Source: Incurvaria masculella (Eukaryota > Arthropoda > Insecta > Lepidoptera > Incurvariidae). From it: a DNA stretch of 64,000 nt. The position numbers and the translations under genes were made by a program. Location of the stretch: positions 10,416,001 through 10,480,000 of the forward strand of contig OX335655.1 in the NCBI GenBank assembly GCA_946894095.1, read 5' to 3'. Numbering within the stretch: position 1 is the first letter of the stretch; each line of letters opens with the position of its first letter. The notes beneath the pieces are model-generated. The model was not told the origin of the DNA. It saw only the letters and a list, made by a program, of their open reading frames with translations, and did not search any database. Positions 19,331 through 34,211 of the stretch are shown here, one piece after another.

Positions 19331-20610
19331 TGGTTGGGGAAAAAGTTTCTTCGCATTTTTTAAGAAAATTCAAAACATTTTTTAATATGGTTTATTTACA
19401 TTTAACTAAAGTATGTAGGTACCATTTTGTTCGATAACTTTTTGCCATCTTGTAGGTAGGGACATGATCCCATTGCTATAGAAATATTGGGACTTCTGAT
19501 CAATATACCGCGACAAGTGGTTTTGGCAGTCCTCTCGTGATGTTAACCTGACACTGCCTAAAGAATTCTGAAGAGACCTAAACAGGTGGAAATCTGAAGG
19601 TGCAAGGTCAGGACTATACGGCGGATGCATTAACACCTCCCAGCCAAACTCTCTTAGTTTTTGCTGAGTGGCTAAAGATGTGTGAGGTCTAGCGTTATCA
19701 TGATGAAAAACCACACCCCTTCTGTTGATTAATTTCGGCCGCTTTCTCTCAACTTCTTGCTTTAATCTCATCAGTTGTTCGCAGTAGAGTTCAGAATCGA
19801 TGGTCCTGCCTGGTGGTAACAGCTCATAATGAATAATGCCCTTCCAATCCCACCACACACACAGCATCACCTTGTTGCGAGTTAACCCGGGTTTCGCCAC
19901 AGTCTGTGAAGCTTGACCGGCCTTTGACCACGACCTTTTTCGCACGTTCTTGTCGTACGTGATCCACTTTTCATCACCAGTTATCAGCTTCTTCAAAAAT
20001 GGTTCGGTTTCATTACGTCGTAATAAAGAATCACAAATGAGTACACGGTTCATTAGGTTTCTTTCAGTGAGCTCGTGAGGTACCCAAATATCGAGCTTTT
20101 TTGTGTACCCAGTTTTTTTCAAATGCGCCTAAACTGTTTTGTGGTCAATTCCTAGTTCTTCAGCTACGTCGTAACTACTGATATGCCGATCTTGCTCCAC
20201 TTTTTCAAAAATGCCATCCATTTTATCCGTAATAGGGCGACCAGAGCGACGTGCATCTTTGACATCAAAATTTCCGGATTGAAAACGCTTAAACCAAATT
20301 TGTGCTACTCTCACAGACACTGCACTAGGTCCATAAACATCGCAATTTTTTTTCGCGGCTTGCGTTGAATTTTTACCTTTTTTGTAGTAAAATTTTAAAA
20401 TGTATCGAATTTCTTCATTAGATTCACTCATTTTGACAGTACGAAAAACAAATGAGAATCACACATTTTCCTAATTTGAATTTGGAATTATGTTCTTTAA
20501 AATTTAAACTTTCAATGATACCAAAACCAGCCAGATACAAATAGTATAGCCAAAGAGATTTTATTACAAGTTCATACATACTATAATGCGAAAAGACTTT
20601 TCCCCCGACC
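19331..20610 (-). mobile_element. Mariner transposon, near-complete
   Basis: About 1280 bp, the usual size for mariner. Terminal inverted repeats of about 28 bp: left GGTTGGGGAAAAAGTTTC, right (read inward on the minus strand) GGTCGGGGGAAAAGTCTT, both continuing TTCGCAT. TA dinucleotides flank it at 19329-19330 and 20611-20612. It encodes the transposase described separately. It resembles mellifera-type mariners from memory, which is not a verified subfamily call. Confidence 0.85.
19406..20431 (-). pseudogene. Mariner transposase interrupted by one in-frame stop
   Basis: DD34D transposase that would bind the element's inverted repeats and move it by cut and paste at TA sites. The frame starts MSESNEEIRYILKFYYKKG at 20431. 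A helix-turn-helix region follows (AVSVRVAQIWFKRFQSGNFD, then SSYDVAEELGIDHKTV). A TAG stop lies at 20129-20131, after which the same frame continues to 19406. Signature motifs are intact: WVPHEL, the first Asp in GDEKW, the second in HHDNARPH and the third in YSPDLAPSD, with 34 residues between the second and third. Total length of 342 codons including both stops matches the family. Only the single amber codon breaks it, so inactivation appears recent. Confidence 0.9.
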
Positions 20611-22516: not shown

Positions 22517-22985
22517 CAGGGTCCGTCACTCGAAGTGTTACCAATTGAAAATGATGTTATTTAGTTAATTGAAGTACGGTTCGTTAAAAATTATATCACA
22601 ATAAAACATTTAATTTTAAGACAATAATTGTTATTGTTCGATATAGCCTTTGATCCATAGATAAGAGCTTTCTGAGACGATCCTGAGTGTTGTTGGAACG
22701 TCCAGCGTTTCGTACTGCATTGTTTATACGTGCACATGGTATGAGCGCCTCATTTAACACCAACACTTGCTGGTTGACTTTGACGCCCTTCTCGATAAAC
22801 ACGAGTGAATAGCGACCATTTGCGGTCACTGCAGCCGAGACCATAACAGAAGCGGGCGCTTGCTTACGAACGGGAACTCCTTCGTCTAAATTCTCGTTGG
22901 ATTTGCCCTGTAGCCAAACACGAAAATGTTGTTTGTTTATATACTGTTAGACAGTAAACATTTTTTCATCAGAAAAAACAATGTT
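22517..22985 (-). pseudogene. Degenerate mariner, 3' half of element
   Basis: Outer end reads CAGGGTCCGTCACTCGAAG at 22517, next to TA at 22515-22516, and mirrors the far end at 34211. The minus strand carries the middle of a mariner-type transposase: VFSDEKMFTV (first catalytic Asp), a stop, then VMVSAAVTANGRYSLVFIEK and GVKVNQQVLVLNEALIP. The expected second and third catalytic Asp region is missing, so there was an internal deletion as well. The element is split from its 5' half (33663-34211) by the gypsy retrotransposon. Confidence 0.75.
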
Positions 22986-23894
22986 TGTAGCGTCGCCGTG
23001 CCGCCGTGTTCCGTATCCGTGTGAGCAGCCGGGCGTGATCTACTTCGAGGCCACACCCACGCCTTCCGATGTCTTCAGCCCGTGGACCAGCAGCCACAGC
23101 TTCCGCCGTGCCCTGTCACAGTCGCCGGTCCGACATCTTCAACACGTAGACCCACCACCACAGCGTCGCCGTACGCCTGCTGGATCCCCGCACGGTACCT
23201 ATACTCTAACGCCAGCCCCCCCCGTAGAAATCTACGATGAAACCGCAAAGAGCGTCTATCAGGATCACCCATTGAAGCAGAACACCGCCCATTCGACTAC
23301 GCACGACCTCGGACCCACCCCGAGCTCCCGGCATGGAACCCCGGCCATTTGGATATTAGGATAGGCTAAGGCCGTGTTAGAACACCGCCTTGATTGTTAA
23401 TTATTTATAGTCTTCTTTGTGCTTCTAAATATAGGCTATTTTAGGTAGATGGTTAGATCGCCACAGCCCAATTTTCTTAATTTGTAGGTGTCTTAAATAG
23501 GACAATGCCAGGGTGTATTTTTGATTGTCTGTTTGTGTTTTGTGCCTCAAATGGTCTATAATTTATTACATCTTTTTTTGTACCTACTGTAGTCTGTTAA
23601 TTCGCTATTCATCGATTCCCTACAAATTCACCCATTCCCAACCTGTGAACAGCCTCCCCCACACGCTGCAGAGCTGCCACCAAGTACATTCATGAGATCC
23701 CTCCTCTACACATCACACTTTATACACCGGCGTAACCACCTGGATATCTTGTAGCCTAATTAAATTACAACGAACCACCGGAAGATCCCTGGGCCCTTGA
23801 AACCCTATATATGTCTGTCGGTCTGTCCGTGGCAACCACTCCTACTTACTCATTTCTTCTAATGCATCACACCCTTTAAATTAACAAGGCTACA
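22986..23894 (+). repeat. 5' LTR of gypsy element
   Basis: Starts TGTAGCG and ends GGCTACA, the canonical TG...CA termini with a 6-bp inverted match. 909 bp, the same length as the 3' LTR, and no differences were found on reading both copies. The GC-rich first third gives an open frame on both strands that I regard as non-coding. A TATATAT string at 23806-23812 lies close to the end of the LTR. The start of the R region cannot be set from sequence alone. Confidence 0.95.
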
Positions 23895-23896
23895 AT

Positions 23897-23911
23897 TGGC
23901 ACCCGAACTGG
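23897..23911 (+). other. Primer binding site, tRNA-Lys-like
   Basis: TGGCACCCGAACTGG lies two bases after the 5' LTR. It differs at two of 15 positions from the well-known tRNA-Lys(3) primer site TGGCGCCCGAACAGG. It would pair with the 3' end of a tRNA to start minus-strand DNA synthesis. Confidence 0.75.
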
Positions 23912-24682
23912 TTTATTTTAATTTCCTATTTGTATATATTAATTATATTTATTTTATTATGGTACGCCTCACTTGTTTTATACACTACAAATTAACTCTC
24001 CATTTCAGCCCTGACGGTAAGCAAATAGCGAATTAACAAAACTGAATATTAAATGTGTCAATAACGAGTTGTGTCCACCAACGTAATAGGTATATAGGTA
24101 CTTACGCACGTTATTTCATTTTAGAATATCGAGTCTTGCAATAGCGCACGAAGGCGGTAACTCTCGCTCTTATAGGTGTGCACTGTTTCCTTAGGTTTTT
24201 AGGTCATCATATATTGGAAGCCGAGAGCAGAGCATATTCTTTGTCTTTCTCTCATTTCTTATAAATATAGCTTATAGCACGTTGCGCGTGGACAAATCGC
24301 GAGCACGTGAGCACGCGACCGGCCAGTCCCGCGATCCGGAACTTCTTGGGTTAGTATGAAACAACGAAATATAAAAAACTGAAATGTGCTGTTTCATTTA
24401 AGTGTATAATTTTATGTGTTCTTGATGCTTATGTATTGTGTGTGTAAATAACGTGTGTGAAATTTTTTTTTCTTCTCGCTTTATTCTCTTGCGTTGAACA
24501 CGTAGGTTATATTTGGAAGTCAGGTTAACTACGTGCTTATTGTTAATCACTCGTTAAAACAAACCTTAATCTGTAGTTATCAGGCTTTCGTCTCGTTCGA
24601 TCTAGTCGCGTGTCGCGTTAACGGAAATTTACGTAATTTTTTTTTTAACTCATTTTAAGTAAGTTATTATAGGTACTACAAA
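23912..24682 (+). other. 5' leader of gypsy element
   Basis: About 770 bp between the primer binding site and the gag ATG. AT-rich with no open frame. Expected to hold the packaging signal, which I cannot locate by eye. Confidence 0.6.
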
Positions 24683-26026
24683 ATGGAAAGCCAGGACCAT
24701 TCCGTGTGCATTGACATGCCAGAGGACCAATTAATGATGTATGACAATCAATCCATAAATTCACAGTCGGAGGTTAATGTTGTAACACGTAGTGGTGGTG
24801 ATTATGGACCCAGTTTTTTTTCCTTGGATAACGATTCCAACCAGTCATCTTCAAGTACCGTGGTAAAACCAGAAGGTCTCCACGAAAATTGTGTGTTCAA
24901 CAAACATTACTACAACTTATCGTCCTGGAATCTAAAATATAGTGGTGAAACAGATGTACGTGAATTCATTGCCCGTGTCGAAGAGCTTACTTATGCGCGG
25001 AAATCTAACTATGACATCGTACTGAGATGTTTCATTGATTTGTTGTCGGGCACTGCTTTGAAATGGTTCCGTACCGTGAGGGATGGAGTTACGAATTGGG
25101 ACCAGCTTAAGAAAGCCTTGTTAGAGGAGTACGATAATATCGACTACGTTTTCGACACGGAATCCCGTATTCGCTCGTTAAAACAAAAACCTAACCAGAA
25201 GTTGTCAGATTTTGTAACAGATGTGAATGATTTGGCAAATAAAATCAAGGGTCAAATTTCCGATATCATGCTTTTCGAAATAATAAAACGAAATATGTTA
25301 CCTAAGTACAATCAATGTCTGATTTACGGTACGATTAAAAATACTTGCGACCTTCTGGCGTATGGTAAGAAAATTGAACGTTTTAATAATGAGGCCCCCT
25401 TCAGTAATATCAAATCAGAGGTGTCCAAAGTTAACAGTTATATTCCTAAAGCCGAGACAGTGTCGACTTCAAACGCAAACGCTTGTCTCAAATGTAAAAA
25501 TACGGGCCATTCTTTTAAAAACTGCCCGAATATTTTAATACCTATCTGCTTTGACTGCGGCAAGCTAAATGTCACGTCCAAAAATTGTCCCACATGTGCC
25601 GCGAAAGGTAACCAAAATTCGAGGTCTACGCCTCAGCCCCACTCTCGGTTCACATCTCGTGCTGAAGCGTCACACCAACGCAGCGGACAACAATACCCGC
25701 CGTGGTATAACAATAATGCAGGCCAATTTAGTGTTAGGCAACAGAATCCTCCAACTTATATTAACAACGCCAACAATAACAATTTTAATGGCGGTCAATA
25801 TCCTCGTTTTAGGCCAGTCTATTCAGGCCAATACAATAACTCTTACCGCCCTAGGGGTCAGCAATACCGACCTTATTTTCCGAACGCGAGTCACCCCCCG
25901 GCGACTCACTTTCACTCATCGAACTACGCCGATAGCGCGCGCGAGCTGCCGCATAACAATATTCGAGCGATCGAGGCCCCCCCATCCCCCCCTCAATCTT
26001 CCGCTTCTCATACAAAAAACGGGTAA
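24683..26026 (+). CDS. gag: Gag polyprotein of Ty3/gypsy element
   Basis: 447 codons from an ATG in good context (ACAAAATGG). Gag forms the cytoplasmic particle that packages element RNA. Residues 80-235 match the retrotransposon gag/capsid pattern (WNLKYSGETDVREFIARVEEL, then ALKWFRTV and EEYDNIDYVFDTESRIRSLKQKPNQKLSDFV). A zinc knuckle follows: C268-x2-C271-x4-H276-x4-C281. A second CCHC-like unit at 289-302 has Val at 297 where His is expected, so it may not bind zinc. Residues 305-447 are rich in Gln, Asn, Tyr and Pro and look disordered. The frame ends TAA at 26024, four bases after a -1 slippery heptamer, and pol is in the -1 frame. Confidence 0.93.
   Translation: MESQDHSVCIDMPEDQLMMYDNQSINSQSEVNVVTRSGGDYGPSFFSLDNDSNQSSSSTVVKPEGLHENCVFNKHYYNLSSWNLKYSGETDVREFIARVEELTYARKSNYDIVLRCFIDLLSGTALKWFRTVRDGVTNWDQLKKALLEEYDNIDYVFDTESRIRSLKQKPNQKLSDFVTDVNDLANKIKGQISDIMLFEIIKRNMLPKYNQCLIYGTIKNTCDLLAYGKKIERFNNEAPFSNIKSEVSKVNSYIPKAETVSTSNANACLKCKNTGHSFKNCPNILIPICFDCGKLNVTSKNCPTCAAKGNQNSRSTPQPHSRFTSRAEASHQRSGQQYPPWYNNNAGQFSVRQQNPPTYINNANNNNFNGGQYPRFRPVYSGQYNNSYRPRGQQYRPYFPNASHPPATHFHSSNYADSARELPHNNIRAIEAPPSPPQSSASHTKNG
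26014..26020 (+). promoter_or_regulatory. -1 ribosomal frameshift slippery site
   Basis: A AAA AAC in the gag frame (codons aca aaa aac), followed by GGG and the gag stop TAA. This is a classic X XXY YYZ heptamer. Slippage moves ribosomes from the gag frame (positions 2 mod 3) to the pol frame (1 mod 3), which is open across this point. A downstream structure would be expected but I did not identify one. Confidence 0.8.
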
Positions 26027-29000
26027 ACGCACCGGCGACTTATACCTCCTCGGAAGAATGGCATGACTGGTTAAAATTTGTTCATGACTTTCCGAAAGTT
26101 AGCCCGGTGCTATCAAACCAACATGGCGATAGGAGGCCTTACGTTCATTTCAAGTTAAATAATAAGGATTTTACAGCTCTATTAGATAGTGGAGCCGAGA
26201 TAAATGTGTTTGGTAATAATTCACATCTTGAAATACTGAATATGGGATATACTTTAGACAAGTCCAAAATTTGTTCCGCCTCTACGGCAGACGGGACTAA
26301 ACAATTTAGTCCAGGCTCAATCCATTGCAATATCGTGGTCGACGGCATTGAAATTCCACTTACTTTTGAAGTTATTCCAGAAATTAAATCTGATTGCATT
26401 TTAGGCACAGAATTTTGGGAAAAGTCCGGTCTATCAAAAAAAATTTCCGGCTGTATAAATAAAAAAATCACTTTCTCCATTCCGTCAGAATTTCAGATTT
26501 CTTCATTAAACATTGATGGGGCCATTAAAAAAATTAAAGATATTATTTCCAGCTTAGATATCATTAAAAGTAAAATTTCTAGCTTTAACAGCCCCCGTTC
26601 GAGCAAACATTATAAGTTGTTGGATGAATCACTTACTAAGTTATTGTTAGCTTTGGACGACATTCCGTCTAATAATAACCCGGACATTAAGTCGGCCCGC
26701 AAAATAGCCGTCGCTTCTGTGCAAGAGTCAATAGATGTCTTAGAACGCAAAGCGTATCGGCCGAATTCTCCCCCGCCCACCCTCCCTACGTACGTGCCGC
26801 TCGCGTCGGTCGGTGAAACCAAGCCTTCTTCCGGAGCGCTCAATGCCACACATCGCGCTCAGAGCGCACAGCCCCCGCATTCTGTTTCTAACGCGCAACA
26901 GCTGCATTCTATTTCTAACTCGAGTAATTGTAAACTTTCTCCAGATGAACAATTAATATTAAATAAAACGATAGAAAAGTTTGAGTCCATATCTTTTGAA
27001 AAATGTGGCCTAGGTCGAACGCATCTTCTTGAATATGAAATTGATACGGAAGGTCCTCCAATCAAACAAAGGTTCTATCGCATGTCACCCTACAAACAAA
27101 AGTTAGTGGACCAATTAATAGATGAAATGATAGACTTGGATGTTCTGGAACCATCATCGTCACCCTGGGCCAGTCCTGTGTTAGTAGTACCCAAGAAGGA
27201 CAACTCCTTCCGCCTTTGCATGGACTCTCGTAAACTAAACGCTGTTACAAAAAAATGTAGTTATCCTCTCCCTCGCATAGATAACATTCTTGATAATTTA
27301 AAGGACGCAAAATATATTTCTTCCATTGACTTATCTAAGGCATTTCTTCAGCTCCCTCTGGCAGAATCGGCTAAGGAAAAGACAGCGATTATCTCACAGG
27401 GCCGAGGCTTATTACAATTTAAGGTGGTCCCTTTTGGGCTATCTAACGCACCCCAGAATTTACAGCGCCTGGTCGATGCGTTACTACCAGGTGCAGAATT
27501 CGATGACCATGTGTTTGGTTATCTAGACGACCTAATTATAATTTCCAACAATTTTGCAGACCATATTTCTTACCTTGACAAAGTTTACGAACGTTTACAT
27601 TTCGCTAACCTAACAGTTAACCTAAAGAAGTGTGAATTTCTAAAATCTGAGCTGAAATATCTTGGTTACGTTATAAACGAGTTCGGCTTAAAGACTGACC
27701 CAGCCAAAGTGGAGGCAGTGAAAAACTTTCCAACACCCAAATGTGTCAAAGATGTACGCAGTTTCTTAGGACTAGCTTCCTACTACCGCCGTTTCATCAA
27801 AAATTTCTCTACTATTGCGGCGCCCCTGTCCAATCTCACAAGTTCCATCTCTGAAAAATATTCAAAATTTAATTGGACACCTGAGGCAGAGGCAGCCTTC
27901 GTAAAATTAAAATCCGCCCTCACTTCAGCCCCAGTTTTATGTGTTCCCAATTTTGAAGCCCCCTTTTTCCTCCACTGTGATGCAAGTTTAGTGGGAATTG
28001 GTTCAGCAGTTGTACAAAAGGACGCAAATTTTCAGGAACACCCCGTAGCTTACTATTCGAGAACGCTAACAAAACAAGAGCAAGGTTTTTCTACCACCGA
28101 AAGGGAATTACTTAGTATTGTGGAAGCTACCACACATTTTAGACATTACCTAGAAGGAACTCATTTCACGATTGTGACTGACCATGAAAGCTTGAAATGG
28201 TTATATAAACTCGAGAACCCCACGGGCAGGCTCGCCCGTTGGTCTACTAGGCTCTCGCAATTCTCCTTTGATATCGTCCACAAGAAAGGCAAACTCCATG
28301 TTGTCCCGGACGCGTTGTCACGTATTAAGATCGAAAGTGTAAACTCATCCAACCCAAACGTTCCTATAACTGATGAGTGGTTTTTGAAAATAAAAAATAG
28401 TATACAAAAATCACCCGCTAGTTACCCGAACTTTAGGTTGGAAGACGATAAGCTCTTTCGTTTTTGCAAACCTAAATTCAATCTTTTAAATTCATTTTCA
28501 TGGAAAGAAGTTATTCCCGCTGACCATATTAAACAGCTAGTAACTGCTACTCACGAGAGCCCTCTATCGGCACACCTTGGCCCATTTAAATGTTTTAAAA
28601 AGTTACAACTGAATTATTACTGGCCCAACATGTTTCCTTCAATCAAATCAATCTTAAGTTCGTGTGAAGTTTGTTTAGCATTTAAAGCTAATAATCAGCT
28701 ACCCCATGGTAAAATGTTATTTCAGAAGAAGGTCTACGCTCCAATGCAAACATTAAGTTGCGATCTCATTGGTCCTCTGCCGAGGTCTTATTCAGGACAC
28801 GCATACTTGCTTACTGTAGTTGACATTTTCTCCAAATTTGTATGGTTATGCCCACTTAGAAAAGCCAATAGTAAGTCAATAATTAAATTCATTGAAAATG
28901 AGATTTTCCTAGTCTATGGCGTGCCATATTGTATGATAAGTGATAATGGCGTGCAGTTCGTCTCTAACGAGTTTCAGGCACTTTTAAAAAGGTATAATAT

Positions 29001-29595
29001 CCCTAAATTTTTCAAAAATTGTGTCTATTTCCCACAAAACAATCCAGTGGAAAGACACAATCGTACCATTGAATTAGCCATTGCTTCTTATGTTGAGACA
29101 GACCATAGAAACTGGACTAAAAATTTACCTAAGATTCAGGCAGCTTTAAATAGCCATGTCAGCTTAGCCCATGGGTTTTCACCCAATTTTGTAATGACAG
29201 GTAGAGAACTCATCTTCGATGGTCGATTCCATAAATTTGCAGATTTCACTAAATTAGAGGAGTTAATTATCGATGGTCGCGACGAATGGACCACTAGCTT
29301 AAAATCATTGGCAAGCGTTTTTCATCAAATCCAAGCGAACCTGACTCAAGCATATCAAGCTAATGCCAAACGCTACAACCTTCGTCGTTCAGTGATACAT
29401 TTCAATGTAGGTGACATAGTCTGGCGTCGATCCCATGTTCAATCGGACGCCGCTAAATTCTTTTCAAATAAATTAGCCCCTCGTTTTATTAAATCTGTGG
29501 TCCTTGAGAAAAAATCTGAAAATACATACATTTTGGGCAACATGGATGGTTCCAAGGCAGGCCTAATACATGTGAGTGATATTATTAAATACTAA
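26020..29595 (+). CDS. pol: Pol polyprotein (protease, reverse transcriptase, RNase H, integrase)
   Basis: Entered by -1 frameshift from gag. There is no ATG near the start, and the codon at 26107 is GTG. Residues here count from 26107. The aspartic protease motif LLDSGA has its Asp at 27. Reverse transcriptase spans roughly 320-520, with SPWASPVLVVPKK, the catalytic Asp in SSIDLSKAF, and YLDD at 472-475. RNase H has HCDAS (Asp 625), TTERELL and VTDHESLKW. Integrase has a zinc-binding HHCC region at about 790-860 and catalytic D886 (SCDLIGPL), D946 (ISDNGVQF) and E982 (NPVERHNRT), a D,D-35-E arrangement. The frame ends at TAA 29593-29595. All key residues are present and no stop or frameshift is seen. 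The usual NAPATFQR motif reads NAPQNLQR. Confidence 0.95.
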   Translation, partial: RVNAPATYTSSEEWHDWLKFVHDFPKVSPVLSNQHGDRRPYVHFKLNNKDFTALLDSGAEINVFGNNSHLEILNMGYTLDKSKICSASTADGTKQFSPGSIHCNIVVDGIEIPLTFEVIPEIKSDCILGTEFWEKSGLSKKISGCINKKITFSIPSEFQISSLNIDGAIKKIKDIISSLDIIKSKISSFNSPRSSKHYKLLDESLTKLLLALDDIPSNNNPDIKSARKIAVASVQESIDVLERKAYRPNSPPPTLPTYVPLASVGETKPSSGALNATHRAQSAQPPHSVSNAQQLHSISNSSNCKLSPDEQLILNKTIEKFESISFEKCGLGRTHLLEYEIDTEGPPIKQRFYRMSPYKQKLVDQLIDEMIDLDVLEPSSSPWASPVLVVPKKDNSFRLCMDSRKLNAVTKKCSYPLPRIDNILDNLKDAKYISSIDLSKAFLQLPLAESAKEKTAIISQGRGLLQFKVVPFGLSNAPQNLQRLVDALLPGAEFDDHVFGYLDDLIIISNNFADHISYLDKVYERLHFANLTVNLKKCEFLKSELKYLGYVINEFGLKTDPAKVEAVKNFPTPKCVKDVRSFLGLASYYRRFIKNFSTIAAPLSNLTSSISEKYSKFNWTPEAEAAFVKLKSALTSAPVLCVPNFEAPFFLHCDASLVGIGSAVVQKDANFQEHPVAYYSRTLTKQEQGFSTTERELLSIVEATTHFRHYLEGTHFTIVTDHESLKWLYKLENPTGRLARWSTRLSQFSFDIVHKKGKLHVVPDALSRIKIESVNSSNPNVPITDEWFLKIKNSIQKSPASYPNFRLEDDKLFRFCKPKFNLLNSFSWKEVIPADHIKQLVTATHESPLSAHLGPFKCFKKLQLNYYWPNMFPSIKSILSSCEVCLAFKANNQLPHGKMLFQKKVYAPMQTLSCDLIGPLPRSYSGHAYLLTVVDIFSKFVWLCPLRKANSKSIIKFIENEIFLVYGVPYCMISDNGVQFVSNEFQALLKRYNIPKFFKNCVYFPQNNPVERHNRTIELAIASYVETDHRNWTKNLPKIQAALNSHVSLAHGFSPNFVMTGRELIFDGRFHKFADFTKLEELIIDGRDEWTTSLKSLASVFHQIQANLTQAYQANAKRYNLRRSVIHFNVGDIVWRRSHVQSDAAKFFSNKLAPRFIKSVVLEKKSENTYILGNMDGSKAGLIHVSDIIKY

Positions 29596-29787
29596 AAAAA
29601 AAAAAAAATTAATTAAAACTTTTGTTGAACTGGTTTGCATTTCTTTGATATATTTGGTCATAAATTTAAACAATAACTTTAAGTAACAATAAGTTACAAA
29701 ATTTTTAAATGGTTAAATTCTCTATTAAATTGTATCTTGTGTCACACGCCCAAAAAAGGAGCCAGGTGTCAAGGGATACATGGATGA

Positions 29788-29834
29788 CGGTAATTCTTGG
29801 AGAAGTTTTTTTAGTAAAACAAGCTATACTCCAA
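29788..29834 (+). repeat. Module 0 of array (degraded)
   Basis: CGGTA at 29788, loop segment TTGGAG (29797-29802), AAGCTATA (29821-29828) and CTCCAA (29829-29834) keep the long-range pairing, but no first stem is visible. Confidence 0.45.
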
Positions 29835-29853
29835 TAGTTAGGTTAGGGTCGGT

Positions 29854-29925
29854 CGTGCGCGGTTGTTTTTTTGGAATATTTTTCGAACGCACGTTAATAT
29901 CTAAAGCCTTATTGAAAAAATATCC
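29854..29925 (+). repeat. Module 1 of array
   Basis: Stem CGTGCG (29854-29859) with CGCACG (29888-29893). CGGTT in the loop, AAGCCTTAT at 29904-29912. Loop segment GGAATATTTTTC pairs with the downstream GAAAAAATATCC (to 29925), allowing one bulge. Confidence 0.65.
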
Positions 29926-29981
29926 CGTGAACGGTATTGGCAAGGGAATTCACGTTAATAAATAAAAAGCCCTATCCTTGC
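29926..29981 (+). repeat. Module 2 of array
   Basis: Stem CGTGAA (29926-29931) with TTCACG (29949-29954). CGGTA loop start, AAGCCCTAT at 29967-29975. Loop GCAAGG (29940-29945) pairs with CCTTGC (29976-29981). Confidence 0.7.
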
Positions 29982-29982
29982 T

Positions 29983-30032
29983 CACGGACGGTTACGTGGG
30001 AATCCGTGTTATAAATCTAAGCCTTATCCCGC
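29983..30032 (+). repeat. Module 3 of array
   Basis: Stem CACGGA (29983-29988) with TCCGTG (30003-30008). CGGTT loop start, AAGCCTTAT at 30019-30027. Loop GTGGGA (29996-30001) pairs with TCCCGC (30027-30032), including one G-U. Confidence 0.7.
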
Positions 30033-30228
30033 ATCTAGGTGTTCGGTCACAAATCATGCCGACACAGTACTTAGGTTAGATTCGTTTTGGTATGTTTATT
30101 TAAGTTTTAGTATATGTCTTGTTCTTGGAAAATGTTGTCTTTGAAAAAAAATATATATATTTTGTCTTTTAAAAAATGTGCTTGTGTCACAATGTACTAT
30201 TGGGTACACGTGTGTCCTGGGCGATATG

Positions 30229-30279
30229 GAACGCGGTCGAGTTAACGTTCTTTGTTATAAATTGAAGCCTTATCGACTC
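30229..30279 (+). repeat. Module 4 of array
   Basis: Stem GAACG (30229-30233) with CGTTC (30246-30250). CGGTC loop start, AAGCCTTAT at 30265-30273. Loop GAGTT pairs with GACTC (30275-30279), including one U-G; the weakest long-range helix of the set. Confidence 0.6.
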
Positions 30280-30283
30280 ACCG

Positions 30284-30348
30284 GTGCGCGGTTTTTTATG
30301 GTATTTTTGAAACGCACGTTAAACGCCCAAGCCTTATTCAAAATATCC
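30284..30348 (+). repeat. Module 5 of array
   Basis: Stem GTGCG (30284-30288) with CGCAC (30313-30317). CGGTT loop start, AAGCCTTAT at 30329-30337. Loop GGTATTTTTGAA (30300-30311 approx.) pairs with TTCAAAATATCC (30337-30348) with a bulge. Confidence 0.65.
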
Positions 30349-30403
30349 CGCAGGACGGTTGGTTGAGAATCCTGCGTAGCAAAAATAAAGCCTTATCTCT
30401 CAA
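30349..30403 (+). repeat. Module 6 of array
   Basis: Stem CGCAGGA (30349-30355) with TCCTGCG (30370-30376). CGGTT loop start, AAGCCTTAT at 30388-30396. Loop TTGAGA (30363-30368) pairs with TCTCAA (30398-30403). Confidence 0.7.
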
Positions 30404-30438
30404 ACTTATGTGTACGGTCACTCTTGTGTCGTCACAGC

Positions 30439-30484
30439 TGGAGGCGGTTGTAGAACCTCCATATAAATATAAGCCTTATCTACA
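30439..30484 (+). repeat. Module 7 of array
   Basis: Stem TGGAGG (30439-30444) with CCTCCA (30456-30461). CGGTT loop start, AAGCCTTAT at 30471-30479. Loop TGTAGA (30449-30454) pairs with TCTACA (30479-30484). Confidence 0.7.
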
Positions 30485-31961
30485 CTCCACATTGTTCGAA
30501 TCCGTTAAAATCAGTTCGACAAATTCTTAGTTAGGTTAGGGTCTTTCACAGACGTCCGCGAAGCAAACCAGCCTCGCGTTCGTCGGGTTTTTTTTCTTCT
30601 CTCTCTTTCTTTTACCTCCACCTCACTTAACCTCACCCCTCACCCTATTCCCTAGCAAGCTTGCGCCCTCCCACCCTAACACCAACCACCTCACCCAACC
30701 CAGTATGATAGATAATTTAAAAGAAAGGATACGACAGGATAAGTGAATGATGATGTAAGCAAGTGGTTCCTACCCTTTTCCCCATATCTGTCCTCTGTCA
30801 CTAGTAAGTGGTCTCAACCGAGTCACTTACGTAGACAAGGCATACAGCGCATTCACCGCGCTTTATTTTATGTTAGTTCTTTTGGTTATTCTCTATTTTT
30901 TTTTCTCTTTTCTTTTTTTTTCTTTTAACAGCTATAGTGTACTGTAACGGGCAACACGTCGCGTCAGACACGTTCAGCTGAAAACACATAATGGTGTATT
31001 TCGTGATAGATGCCGCCTCCCATGAGGGGGGCAAAATTCTATAGAATCTCTAGGTGCAGGCCATACCCCATTTAACGCTTCTCGACAGGCGGTGCACTAG
31101 GCACCTACCTAGGGCCAAGATGAGACACGAGACAGTTCGCGTGTCTTGATCTGAAGGGGTTTTACGAGTTCTCACTCTGAGGCTCACCAATTACAACCAG
31201 TTTTTTATGTTAAGTCGGCATAATAAGACTGGTTGGGTTGCATTATTTAGTTTTAAGTTCCAAACAACCATACCCTCCCAACACATGTTCTCTGTACATA
31301 CCTGTATATAAAAATACTTATAAGTCGTATTTAGATAAAATTTACTCTAGGTAAGAACAAGGATATGACATTTATAAAGCGTCCCTTATAAAAAGGCACT
31401 TATTATTTTGGATTTTGAGCGTCTACGGGTTAAATGTTAATGACGTTTCCCATAGGATTCTATTCGGTTAATGTAAACCATTTTGAAGACTGCTGAGTCT
31501 TATTTGCCAAATCATTTCATGTGTCTCAAAACGCGTTCGTGAGTGTTGGTAAAACTTTCGTATTAATTGTACAATTGTAAATATTGCTAATTTTAGTTTA
31601 AACTTAAAATTAATTTATAGGCGCACAATAGCGACCAATAAGAGTAGGAACTCTAAATAAATATGGCATAGTGAGCCACTGAACATATAAACTCTCGGAA
31701 AGACAAAATTAAACACGGATTTTGAGAAAATTCAAATTGTATTAAGATATAAACATGCTAATTATATAAATACAATTAAAATACTTAAGCGTAGGTACTT
31801 AGTTAGTTAGTTAGTTAGTTAGTTAGTTCGCGTTCAGAGTGACACATCTTAAGTAGGATGTCGCTAGACACATTATAGTATTTAGAAAGTATACGGAATG
31901 TTAGAAATATAATGTCCGGAACACACAGTGGTTCCTACTATCGCTTTAATAATGCTGGTGG

Positions 31962-32330
31962 ACACAACTTCGCTTAATAATGTTTTCTCATACTTGTCTT
32001 AATTTTTATTATTGAAAATACACTCAAGGACAAAACTTCCTTTATTGATGTTTTTTTTCTTAAATTATTTGTCTTAATTCTTATTATCGAAAGTACACTC
32101 ATAGATACAACTTCTTTAGTGATGTTTATTTTTATACGTATCTCAATTTTCCTTATTATTGAAAGTACACTCAAGGACACAACTTGTTCTCTTTATGCCT
32201 TGCTTTTCTTGTTTTTATTTAAAAAAAAAAGACATTCATGAATATAATTTCGGCTAGTAATGTTTCTTCTCATACTCGTCTTATACTTTTTATTAATAAT
32301 GAAAGTCAACTTAAAGGATATAAGTCATTG
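31962..32330 (+). repeat. Imperfect direct repeats of about 70 bp in the gypsy 3' region
   Basis: ACAACTT-type starts recur near 31963, 32033, 32107, 32179 and (weaker) 32243. Each is followed by a TTA.TGATGTTT block, a GTCTTAAT.. block and then TTATTATTGAAAGTACACTCA. On the minus strand this yields a short repetitive frame that is not a gene. Confidence 0.7.
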
Positions 32331-32753
32331 GGCTGTGGCTTCCATAGGATTGTAAATATGTGTTAGCTTGTACATGTGTGTAAATATTTTACTGATTGAT
32401 AAAAATGTTACTTATATGTTAATGTCATAACACTGTGTTCGATATTAATTCTATTTCTGTTGTCATTTAGATGTTTTAGCATTCCATTGGGCTTGGCTTA
32501 TAGTATTGTAAACCTGTTGAATGTCTAGAAATTTAAAACAGTTTTGCCAATCGATATCACATTGATGTAAAGATTATCATTAGTAACATTTTGGTTAGCT
32601 TCAGTATTAATTATTACTTTTGCACTGTCAATTATAGTTCAGCAATTAATGTTATAGTCACTGTGACATTCTGGTCACTTTGTTAAATGTCTAGGGTACT
32701 TAAATTCTTTTTTTTTTTGCTTGTTTTTTTTTGTTTTTTAAGTAACCGGGTAT

Positions 32754-33662
32754 TGTAGCGTCGCCGTGCCGCCGTGTTCCGTATCCGTGTGAGCAGCCGG
32801 GCGTGATCTACTTCGAGGCCACACCCACGCCTTCCGATGTCTTCAGCCCGTGGACCAGCAGCCACAGCTTCCGCCGTGCCCTGTCACAGTCGCCGGTCCG
32901 ACATCTTCAACACGTAGACCCACCACCACAGCGTCGCCGTACGCCTGCTGGATCCCCGCACGGTACCTATACTCTAACGCCAGCCCCCCCCGTAGAAATC
33001 TACGATGAAACCGCAAAGAGCGTCTATCAGGATCACCCATTGAAGCAGAACACCGCCCATTCGACTACGCACGACCTCGGACCCACCCCGAGCTCCCGGC
33101 ATGGAACCCCGGCCATTTGGATATTAGGATAGGCTAAGGCCGTGTTAGAACACCGCCTTGATTGTTAATTATTTATAGTCTTCTTTGTGCTTCTAAATAT
33201 AGGCTATTTTAGGTAGATGGTTAGATCGCCACAGCCCAATTTTCTTAATTTGTAGGTGTCTTAAATAGGACAATGCCAGGGTGTATTTTTGATTGTCTGT
33301 TTGTGTTTTGTGCCTCAAATGGTCTATAATTTATTACATCTTTTTTTGTACCTACTGTAGTCTGTTAATTCGCTATTCATCGATTCCCTACAAATTCACC
33401 CATTCCCAACCTGTGAACAGCCTCCCCCACACGCTGCAGAGCTGCCACCAAGTACATTCATGAGATCCCTCCTCTACACATCACACTTTATACACCGGCG
33501 TAACCACCTGGATATCTTGTAGCCTAATTAAATTACAACGAACCACCGGAAGATCCCTGGGCCCTTGAAACCCTATATATGTCTGTCGGTCTGTCCGTGG
33601 CAACCACTCCTACTTACTCATTTCTTCTAATGCATCACACCCTTTAAATTAACAAGGCTACA
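32754..33662 (+). repeat. 3' LTR of gypsy element
   Basis: 909 bp, starting TGTAGCG and ending GGCTACA, with no difference from the 5' LTR noticed on reading. Followed by TGTT, the target duplication. Confidence 0.95.
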
Positions 33663-34211
33663 TGTTTTCCAGATCGCCACGCAAGACTTTCATTGCTTGA
33701 GCTCTTTGTAGTCGAACTGCCTTCTGCGCTGAACTAAGATGCTGTAAATTTTGTATCTTGTTGGTAGGGCTTCCGTTGCATTTCTTTTTGTTTCAGTATG
33801 CGCCGACTACTTGAGTCGGGTATTGTCTGACTTTTCGCAAATTTTGCAGAACACTGGTGAGGATTTCCTTGAATTCGAGCCTTTACCTTTCGAACCATAT
33901 CATGTGATACTGCTATTTTCGGATGACCGCCTCTATGCCGTTTAGCAATGCTAGGTTATAACGCTTAATGGTTCGATGCACTAACATTTTGTTCACATGT
34001 AAATGTCGGAGCTCCCGAACGATGACTGGTTGTGACTTTCCGGTCAAATACAAAACGATCACAATGTTAGGTTTAATATCCATTGCGAAAATTTATTATA
34101 CAATTCAAATTTGTTCCCACTCTTTTCGCCCACTTAAAAACAATGAAACAAATTGACGTTTCACCAAAATTATTTTGAAAATAGAAGTAACAGTTCAAGT
34201 GACGGACCCCG
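33663..34211 (-). pseudogene. Degenerate mariner, 5' half of element
   Basis: Ends at 34211 with GGGGTCCGTCACTTGAAC (minus strand), the partner of the inverted repeat at 22517, flanked by TA at 34212-34213. The minus strand carries an N-terminal transposase portion starting MDIKPNIVIVLYLTGKSQ near 34085. It then passes through frameshifts (RGGHPKIAVSHDMVRKVKARI is in another frame) to LSSAQKAVRLQRAQAMKVLRGDLEN at the break. The first four bases duplicate TGTT of the other half. Combined length without the retrotransposon is about 1.0 kb. Confidence 0.75.

Follow-up and report, generated by a model that had tools for sequence, protein, structure and literature searches.

Described RNAs of similar design

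The exonuclease-resistant RNA of plant viruses in the Tombusviridae and Luteoviridae, xrRNAD, has been described as a stem-loop whose conserved loop pairs with its 3' flank, its helices covarying and the nucleotides just ahead of the pseudoknot's 3' strand conserved (PMC6299227). Insect-specific flaviviruses are described as carrying several duplicated and diverged class 1b xrRNAs in a single 3' UTR (PMC8917146), which shows that such arrays can arise and persist. The pistol ribozyme is defined by a P1 loop that pairs with a downstream junction (PMC4604425). Pseudoknots are also reported from the 3' UTR of the tobamovirus TMV, where the upstream pseudoknots domain acts in replication and translation (PMC4683447), and from tmRNA, in which functionally interchangeable pseudoknots are arranged in series (PMC1168896). 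In simple retroviruses, export signals can be situated 3' of the last gene and ahead of the 3' LTR, that of MPMV (the CTE) lying just upstream of the PPT (PMC11379458).

Here we describe seven modules (29854-30484, + strand), accompanied by an eroded copy (m0), in the 3' noncoding region that follows pol in a Ty3/gypsy LTR retrotransposon. Coordinates refer to the window, which is the whole 64-kb stretch of DNA that was analysed. To our knowledge, functional RNA structures in insect LTR retrotransposons are little charted. Because the seven copies have diverged side by side, a single element displays the covariation, and a structure can be deduced from it even where orthologues are lacking. 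Should orthologues bear this out, the array would give an RNA signal of a genomic parasite that can be tested directly, be it for packaging, export, translation or decay, and it might represent a new RNA motif. With the tmRNA pseudoknot domain, as published accounts present it, the array shares several pseudoknots of similar design; tmRNA is a bacterial small RNA, whereas the array belongs to the 3' noncoding region of a retrotransposon. The likeness to constitutive transport elements (MPMV CTE, MER11), which are defined by export of unspliced RNA without a viral protein, is one of position only: they too are cis-acting RNAs that follow the last gene and precede the 3' LTR. The passages of PMC11379458 that describe them do not mention a pseudoknot array.

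The host retrotransposon

The element spans 22986-33662 on the + strand and was assigned to the Ty3/gypsy group from its LTRs, its target-site duplication, its gag gene, and a pol gene in which the reverse transcriptase (RT) precedes the integrase. Its parts are as follows.

22986..23894, + strand: 5' LTR (TG...CA), from LTR-LTR alignment
24683..26026, + strand: gag ORF, 447 aa (PF03732, E 7.5e-10)
26107..29595, + strand: pol ORF, 1162 aa, with (aspartyl) protease, BAG domain, RT, RNase H and integrase, from the ORF list and Pfam
32754..33662, + strand: 3' LTR, from LTR-LTR alignment

The two LTRs align over 910 bases with 100% identity. The element begins with TGTAGC and ends with GCTACA, and copies of the target site TGTT lie immediately before the 5' LTR (22982-22985) and after the 3' LTR (33663-33666). 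Since the LTRs are identical, the target site is duplicated and both gag and pol are open, the copy is young and intact in appearance, and a recently mobile copy therefore carried the array. A CCHC motif was seen by eye in the gag ORF. The initial annotation had placed the array in the 3' region of a gypsy retrotransposon, and the LTRs, gag and pol identified around it agree with that placement. Between the pol stop (29595) and the 3' LTR, a distance of approximately 3.1 kb, the ORF list holds no ORF of at least 150 aa, and the array itself ends approximately 2.3 kb before the 3' LTR.

The BAG domain, a domain of Hsp70 co-chaperones, lies within pol between the protease and the RT (26563-26748, + strand; pol residues 153-214). 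It was detected with Pfam (PF02179, E 3.4e-10) and with phmmer (BAG4 1m7k, 2.4e-10; BAG3 1uk5, 5.6e-10), and looks like a captured host domain. Among the matches listed for the open-licence PMC literature, no title or abstract opening reported a BAG domain in a retrotransposon.

Three further features were observed in and around the element. Just 3' of the 5' LTR is TGGCACCCGAACTGG (23897-23911), a putative primer site resembling that for lysine tRNA. In the 3' region of the element, a direct repeat about 52 nt long also occurs three times, at a spacing of 72-75 nt (31991-32189). Upstream of the element, a 238-aa ORF on the - strand (19406-20122) presumably encodes a mariner-type transposase, judging from its translation.

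Organization of the array

Each module follows the order S1 - CGGU - gap - S2 - (G)AA - S1' - 9 to 14 nt - AAGCC(U/C)UAU - S2'. Helices S1 and S2 cross, and the H-type pseudoknot order that had been proposed was read in all seven modules; the stems listed in the initial annotation are all present in the sequence, each at its place. All seven modules were evaluated by arm swap, shuffles and pair listing, and m5 also by comparison with m1.

29788..29834, + strand: m0, eroded; CGGT and S2 (TTGGAG/CTCCAA) kept, no S1, core AAGCTATAC (by eye)
29854..29925, + strand: m1; S1 CGTGCG/CGCACG, A/U-rich S2
29926..29981, + strand: m2; S1 CGTGAA/TTCACG, S2 GCAAGG/CCTTGC, core AAGCCCTAT
29983..30032, + strand: m3; S1 CACGGA/TCCGTG, S2 GTGGGA/TCCCGC
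30039..30065, + strand: hp1, second hairpin type, block A (z -1.51; 21/200 shuffles fold as well)
30228..30279, + strand: m4; S1 GAACG/CGTTC, weak S2 GAGT/ACTC
30284..30348, + strand: m5; S1 GTGCG/CGCAC, A/U-rich S2, resembles m1 (76% over 55 nt)
30349..30403, + strand: m6; S1 CGCAGGA/TCCTGCG, S2 TTGAGA/TCTCAA
30409..30436, + strand: hp2, second hairpin type, block B (z -2.74; 1/200 shuffles folds as well)
30439..30484, + strand: m7; S1 TGGAGG/CCTCCA, S2 TGTAGA/TCTACA

With module ends as we set them, m1 abuts m2 and m5 abuts m6, while 1 nt separates m2 from m3 and 4 nt separate m4 from m5. An eighth, eroded module had also been noted, and this holds in part: m0 keeps its CGGT and S2, but its S1 is missing by eye.

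Three near-invariant segments, CGGU, (G)AA and AAGCC(U/C)UAU, are carried on variable helices, and CGGU and AAGCC are the same in every one of the seven. CGGT stands directly 3' of the S1 5' arm in 7/7 modules, and AAGCCTTAT is exact in six of the seven, with a variant in m2; the earlier claim of a shared loop start and a shared downstream core is thus borne out. The dinucleotide AA directly before S1', which is absent from the initial annotation, occurs in all seven modules and is extended to GAA in five (m4 has TAA and m5 has AAA); the G and the A next to it are part of S2 in some of the modules. S1 appears by eye as a single stem of 5-7 bp. The stretch from S1' to the core is 9 to 14 nt long and mostly A/U-rich, and the spacer from S1' to S2' measures 17 to 25 nt. 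The gap from CGGU to the scored S2 pairs is 0, 1, 3, 3 and 4 nt in m7, m4, m3, m6 and m2, respectively; it is 12 nt in m5 and 15 nt in m1, whose A/U-rich helices are longer and were counted here by their six inner pairs only. AAGCC[CT]TA anchors are found on the + strand at 29904, 29967, 30019, 30265, 30329, 30388 and 30471, with no others on that strand of the window, and three scattered matches occur on the - strand.

Covariation of the helices

At the five S1 positions next to the loop, Watson-Crick pairs fill 35 of 35 cells, and the positions show 2, 3, 2, 4 and 3 pair types. As m1 and m5 have an identical five-pair S1, these represent six independent S1 stems and not seven. When arms were swapped between modules, the true score was reached for S1 by 2 of 5040 permutations (the identity and the m1/m5 swap, which ties because the S1 arms of these two modules are alike) and for S2 by the identity only (1 of 5040), in keeping with the original observation that the helices change in sequence and stay complementary. 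Shuffling segments within modules reached the summed helix energy in 0, 0, 0, 2, 1, 0 and 0 of 400 cases for m1 to m7. Between m1 and m5, an inner S2 pair shows a double change from C-G to G-C (TTTTTC/GAAAAA versus TTTTTG/CAAAA). The per-position listing of S2 pairs uses a register chosen for each module, so that listing is descriptive and not a test. Arms that vary from one copy to the next, while remaining complementary inside each copy, point to selection for an RNA shape.

With at most one core mismatch allowed, a descriptor scan of the 64-kb window on both strands returned seven modules, all of them in the array, whereas none of 20 shuffled windows (one strand each) contained a module. 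With up to three mismatches, two more were found on the + strand and three more on the - strand, similar to the 1 to 8 in each shuffled window (one strand).

Folding of the array

A nested-folding program cannot form both crossing helices, and the case for structure therefore rests on covariation. Single modules showed no excess stability over shuffles in nested folding (z -0.21, 1.04, 0.90, 0.51, 1.41, -0.08 and -0.42 for m1 to m7), nor did the whole array at 29780-30490 when compared with 20 shuffles (z 0.65). In the minimum-energy fold of this 711-nt segment, S1 is complete in one of the seven modules (m3) and S2 in one (m2), and the mean S1 pair probabilities are 0.01, 0.00, 0.46, 0.03, 0.00, 0.62 and 0.38 for m1 to m7. 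S2 is weak in m1, m4 and m5 (-2.8 kcal/mol each), being A/U-rich and interrupted in m1 and m5 and limited to four Watson-Crick pairs in m4. The 82 pairs of the helices rise to 92 if G.U is allowed and to 93 if A.C is allowed, so this comparison does not tell the folding strand.

Searches for relatives and known families

A two-module pattern matched 17 loci in a viral contig collection and 79 in a genome contig collection (96 in total), and 5 of the 17 viral loci (L001, L003, L004, L005 and L008) look like CRISPR repeats by eye. Structure scoring of the 142 candidates in these 96 loci gave three with both helices. As an outside null, both helices were thus present in 3 of 142 core-bearing places from 96 unrelated loci, compared to 7/7 array modules, at cut-offs (S1 <= -4 and S2 <= -2.5 kcal/mol) that were set to include all seven modules; the unrelated loci were picked by sequence core alone, and the 142 places may include repeats of CRISPR-like arrays. 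A one-module pattern added 31 further viral loci. Re-scanning all 127 loci produced 12 loose matches, four of which lie in L010 (a GGTTCCA repeat by eye), and the other eight were judged to be chance by eye, not by test. No relative was found in the viral contig collection for pol, its RT/RNase H part, or gag. In the open-licence PMC literature, titles and abstract openings among the matches listed did not include tandem pseudoknots in an LTR retrotransposon.

Rfam includes a model of xrRNAD. Searching all 4227 Rfam families gave no match in the whole window at gathering thresholds and none at E<=10 in 29740-30560, consistent with the first impression that no described motif has this consensus. 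HDV-like, twister and hatchet ribozymes were considered, also through the Rfam scan, and were dropped.

Possible functions of the array

It is quite possible, if short of probable, that the retrotransposon's genomic/messenger RNA carries a structured module in tandem array and that this array acts as a multivalent cis-acting signal, through Gag or host-protein binding, in packaging, export or translation. Precedents in its favour are the place of the MPMV CTE in the retroviral RNA and the interchangeable pseudoknots that tmRNA has in series. Such a recognition signal fits best because conserved nucleotides and variable helices are combined in tandem copies within a 3' noncoding region, in an RNA that is both translated and packaged. 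The conservation of core nucleotides rather than of helix sequences suggests a recognition site. The fixed nucleotides would make up a tertiary surface that is specific, and on the full-length RNA the seven modules, some of them directly abutting, would serve as a multivalent binding platform. The likeliest ligand would be the element's own Gag, given its CCHC motif, or a host RNA-binding protein; this link from the core to Gag or a host protein is a prediction. Such a platform could serve packaging, nuclear export or translation of the unspliced RNA.

Somewhat more doubtful is the broader proposal that S1-CGGU-S2-(G)AA-S1'-AAGCCYUAU-S2' defines a functional RNA class that had not been described before, that this class has a conserved tertiary core of its own (perhaps including an extra CGGU/AGCC contact), and that the retrotransposon multiplied it sevenfold. 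The array might then be the first exonuclease-blocking or catalytic pseudoknot array in an LTR element.

The main rival to a multivalent recognition signal, which we consider unlikely, is an array of tandem 5'-3' exonuclease-resistant RNAs, where in each module the loop of the stem-loop would pair downstream and so form a ring that would stall Xrn1 and leave stable 3' fragments or protect decapped RNA. Class 1b flavivirus xrRNAs have a three-way-junction fold. The array resembles them, as they are described, in that a single 3' region contains several pseudoknot elements that are homologous and have diverged, and differs in its LTR retrotransposon setting, its seven copies and the lack of an Rfam match. 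The duplicated, diverged xrRNAs in the 3' UTRs of insect-specific flaviviruses (PMC8917146) speak for resistance, as does the description of xrRNAD (PMC6299227), with which the modules share the order of parts and a covarying stem-loop with a loop-to-3'-flank pseudoknot; this likeness was judged from the published description. The modules depart from xrRNAD in their S1'-S2' spacer of 17-25 nt, in their tandem sevenfold arrangement in a retrotransposon, and in showing by eye one S1 of 5-7 bp where xrRNAD has a stem in two parts, P1 and P2, an internal loop, and conserved L1 and L2B sequences. The number of copies, seven, also exceeds the three or four of the viral cases in the available descriptions, and Rfam gave no match at E<=10.

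Less likely again is that the structured array is kept for translation, in the manner of the pseudoknot domain of the tobamovirus 3' UTR. The two are likened by description only, as pseudoknots in a 3' UTR. In TMV the upstream pseudoknot domain is followed by a tRNA-like end. The reported role of that domain in replication and translation (PMC4683447) would favour such a function, but the array lies approximately 2.3 kb before the 3' LTR, and the comparison was made by the Rfam scan alone.

We regard it as very improbable that the modules are self-cleaving ribozymes, belonging to a class not yet described, whose predicted activity would cut the 3' region of the transcript. A conserved core, variable covarying helices and a pseudoknot are the pattern of small ribozymes, and S1 and S2 match P1 and the pseudoknot of pistol as described (PMC4604425). 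The loose link to pistol drawn in the initial annotation was not supported at the level of membership, as the P2/P3 arrangement was not seen consistently and no Rfam ribozyme matched. P3 plus P2 across a two-nucleotide junction was no better than shuffles in 5/7 modules (m1, m2, m5, m6 and m7); a pistol-like P2 is possible in m4 (9 pairs; 2/200 shuffles) and more weakly in m3 (7 pairs; 15/200 shuffles). Ribozymes active downstream of pol and upstream of the 3' LTR would moreover cut an RNA that must be copied, and the loss of this reverse-transcription template makes a ribozyme array less likely. The nine P2-like pairs of m4 span the following hairpin with a two-nucleotide junction (30265-30360), an occurrence in one of seven modules that is possibly due to chance.

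Finally, a chance or mutational by-product, namely unselected tandem repeats with inverted-repeat arms, would suit an array that grew by duplication and folds in nested form without excess stability, but is hardly credible when arms that differ between copies match within them and both helices occur in 7/7 modules against 3/142 unrelated places.

Growth of the array and the second hairpin

Comparison of the modules indicates that the array grew by duplication. The m1 and m5 modules are 76% identical over 55 nt, and the m1-m2 pair resembles m5-m6, each block having an m1-type module followed directly by m2 or m6. Because the blocks are alike and an inner S2 pair is C-G in m1 and G-C in m5, duplication was followed by divergence under a pairing constraint. 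The second hairpin type also occurs once per block, as hp1 and hp2, each with a bulged U, and the centroid helices UCGG/CCGA (hp1) and ACGG/UCGU (hp2) show a compensatory difference. In addition, TTAGGTTAGGGTC-like 16-mers, which we take to be close to the insect telomere repeat TTAGG, are located at 29835 (before m1), 30068 (after hp1) and 30528 (after m7).
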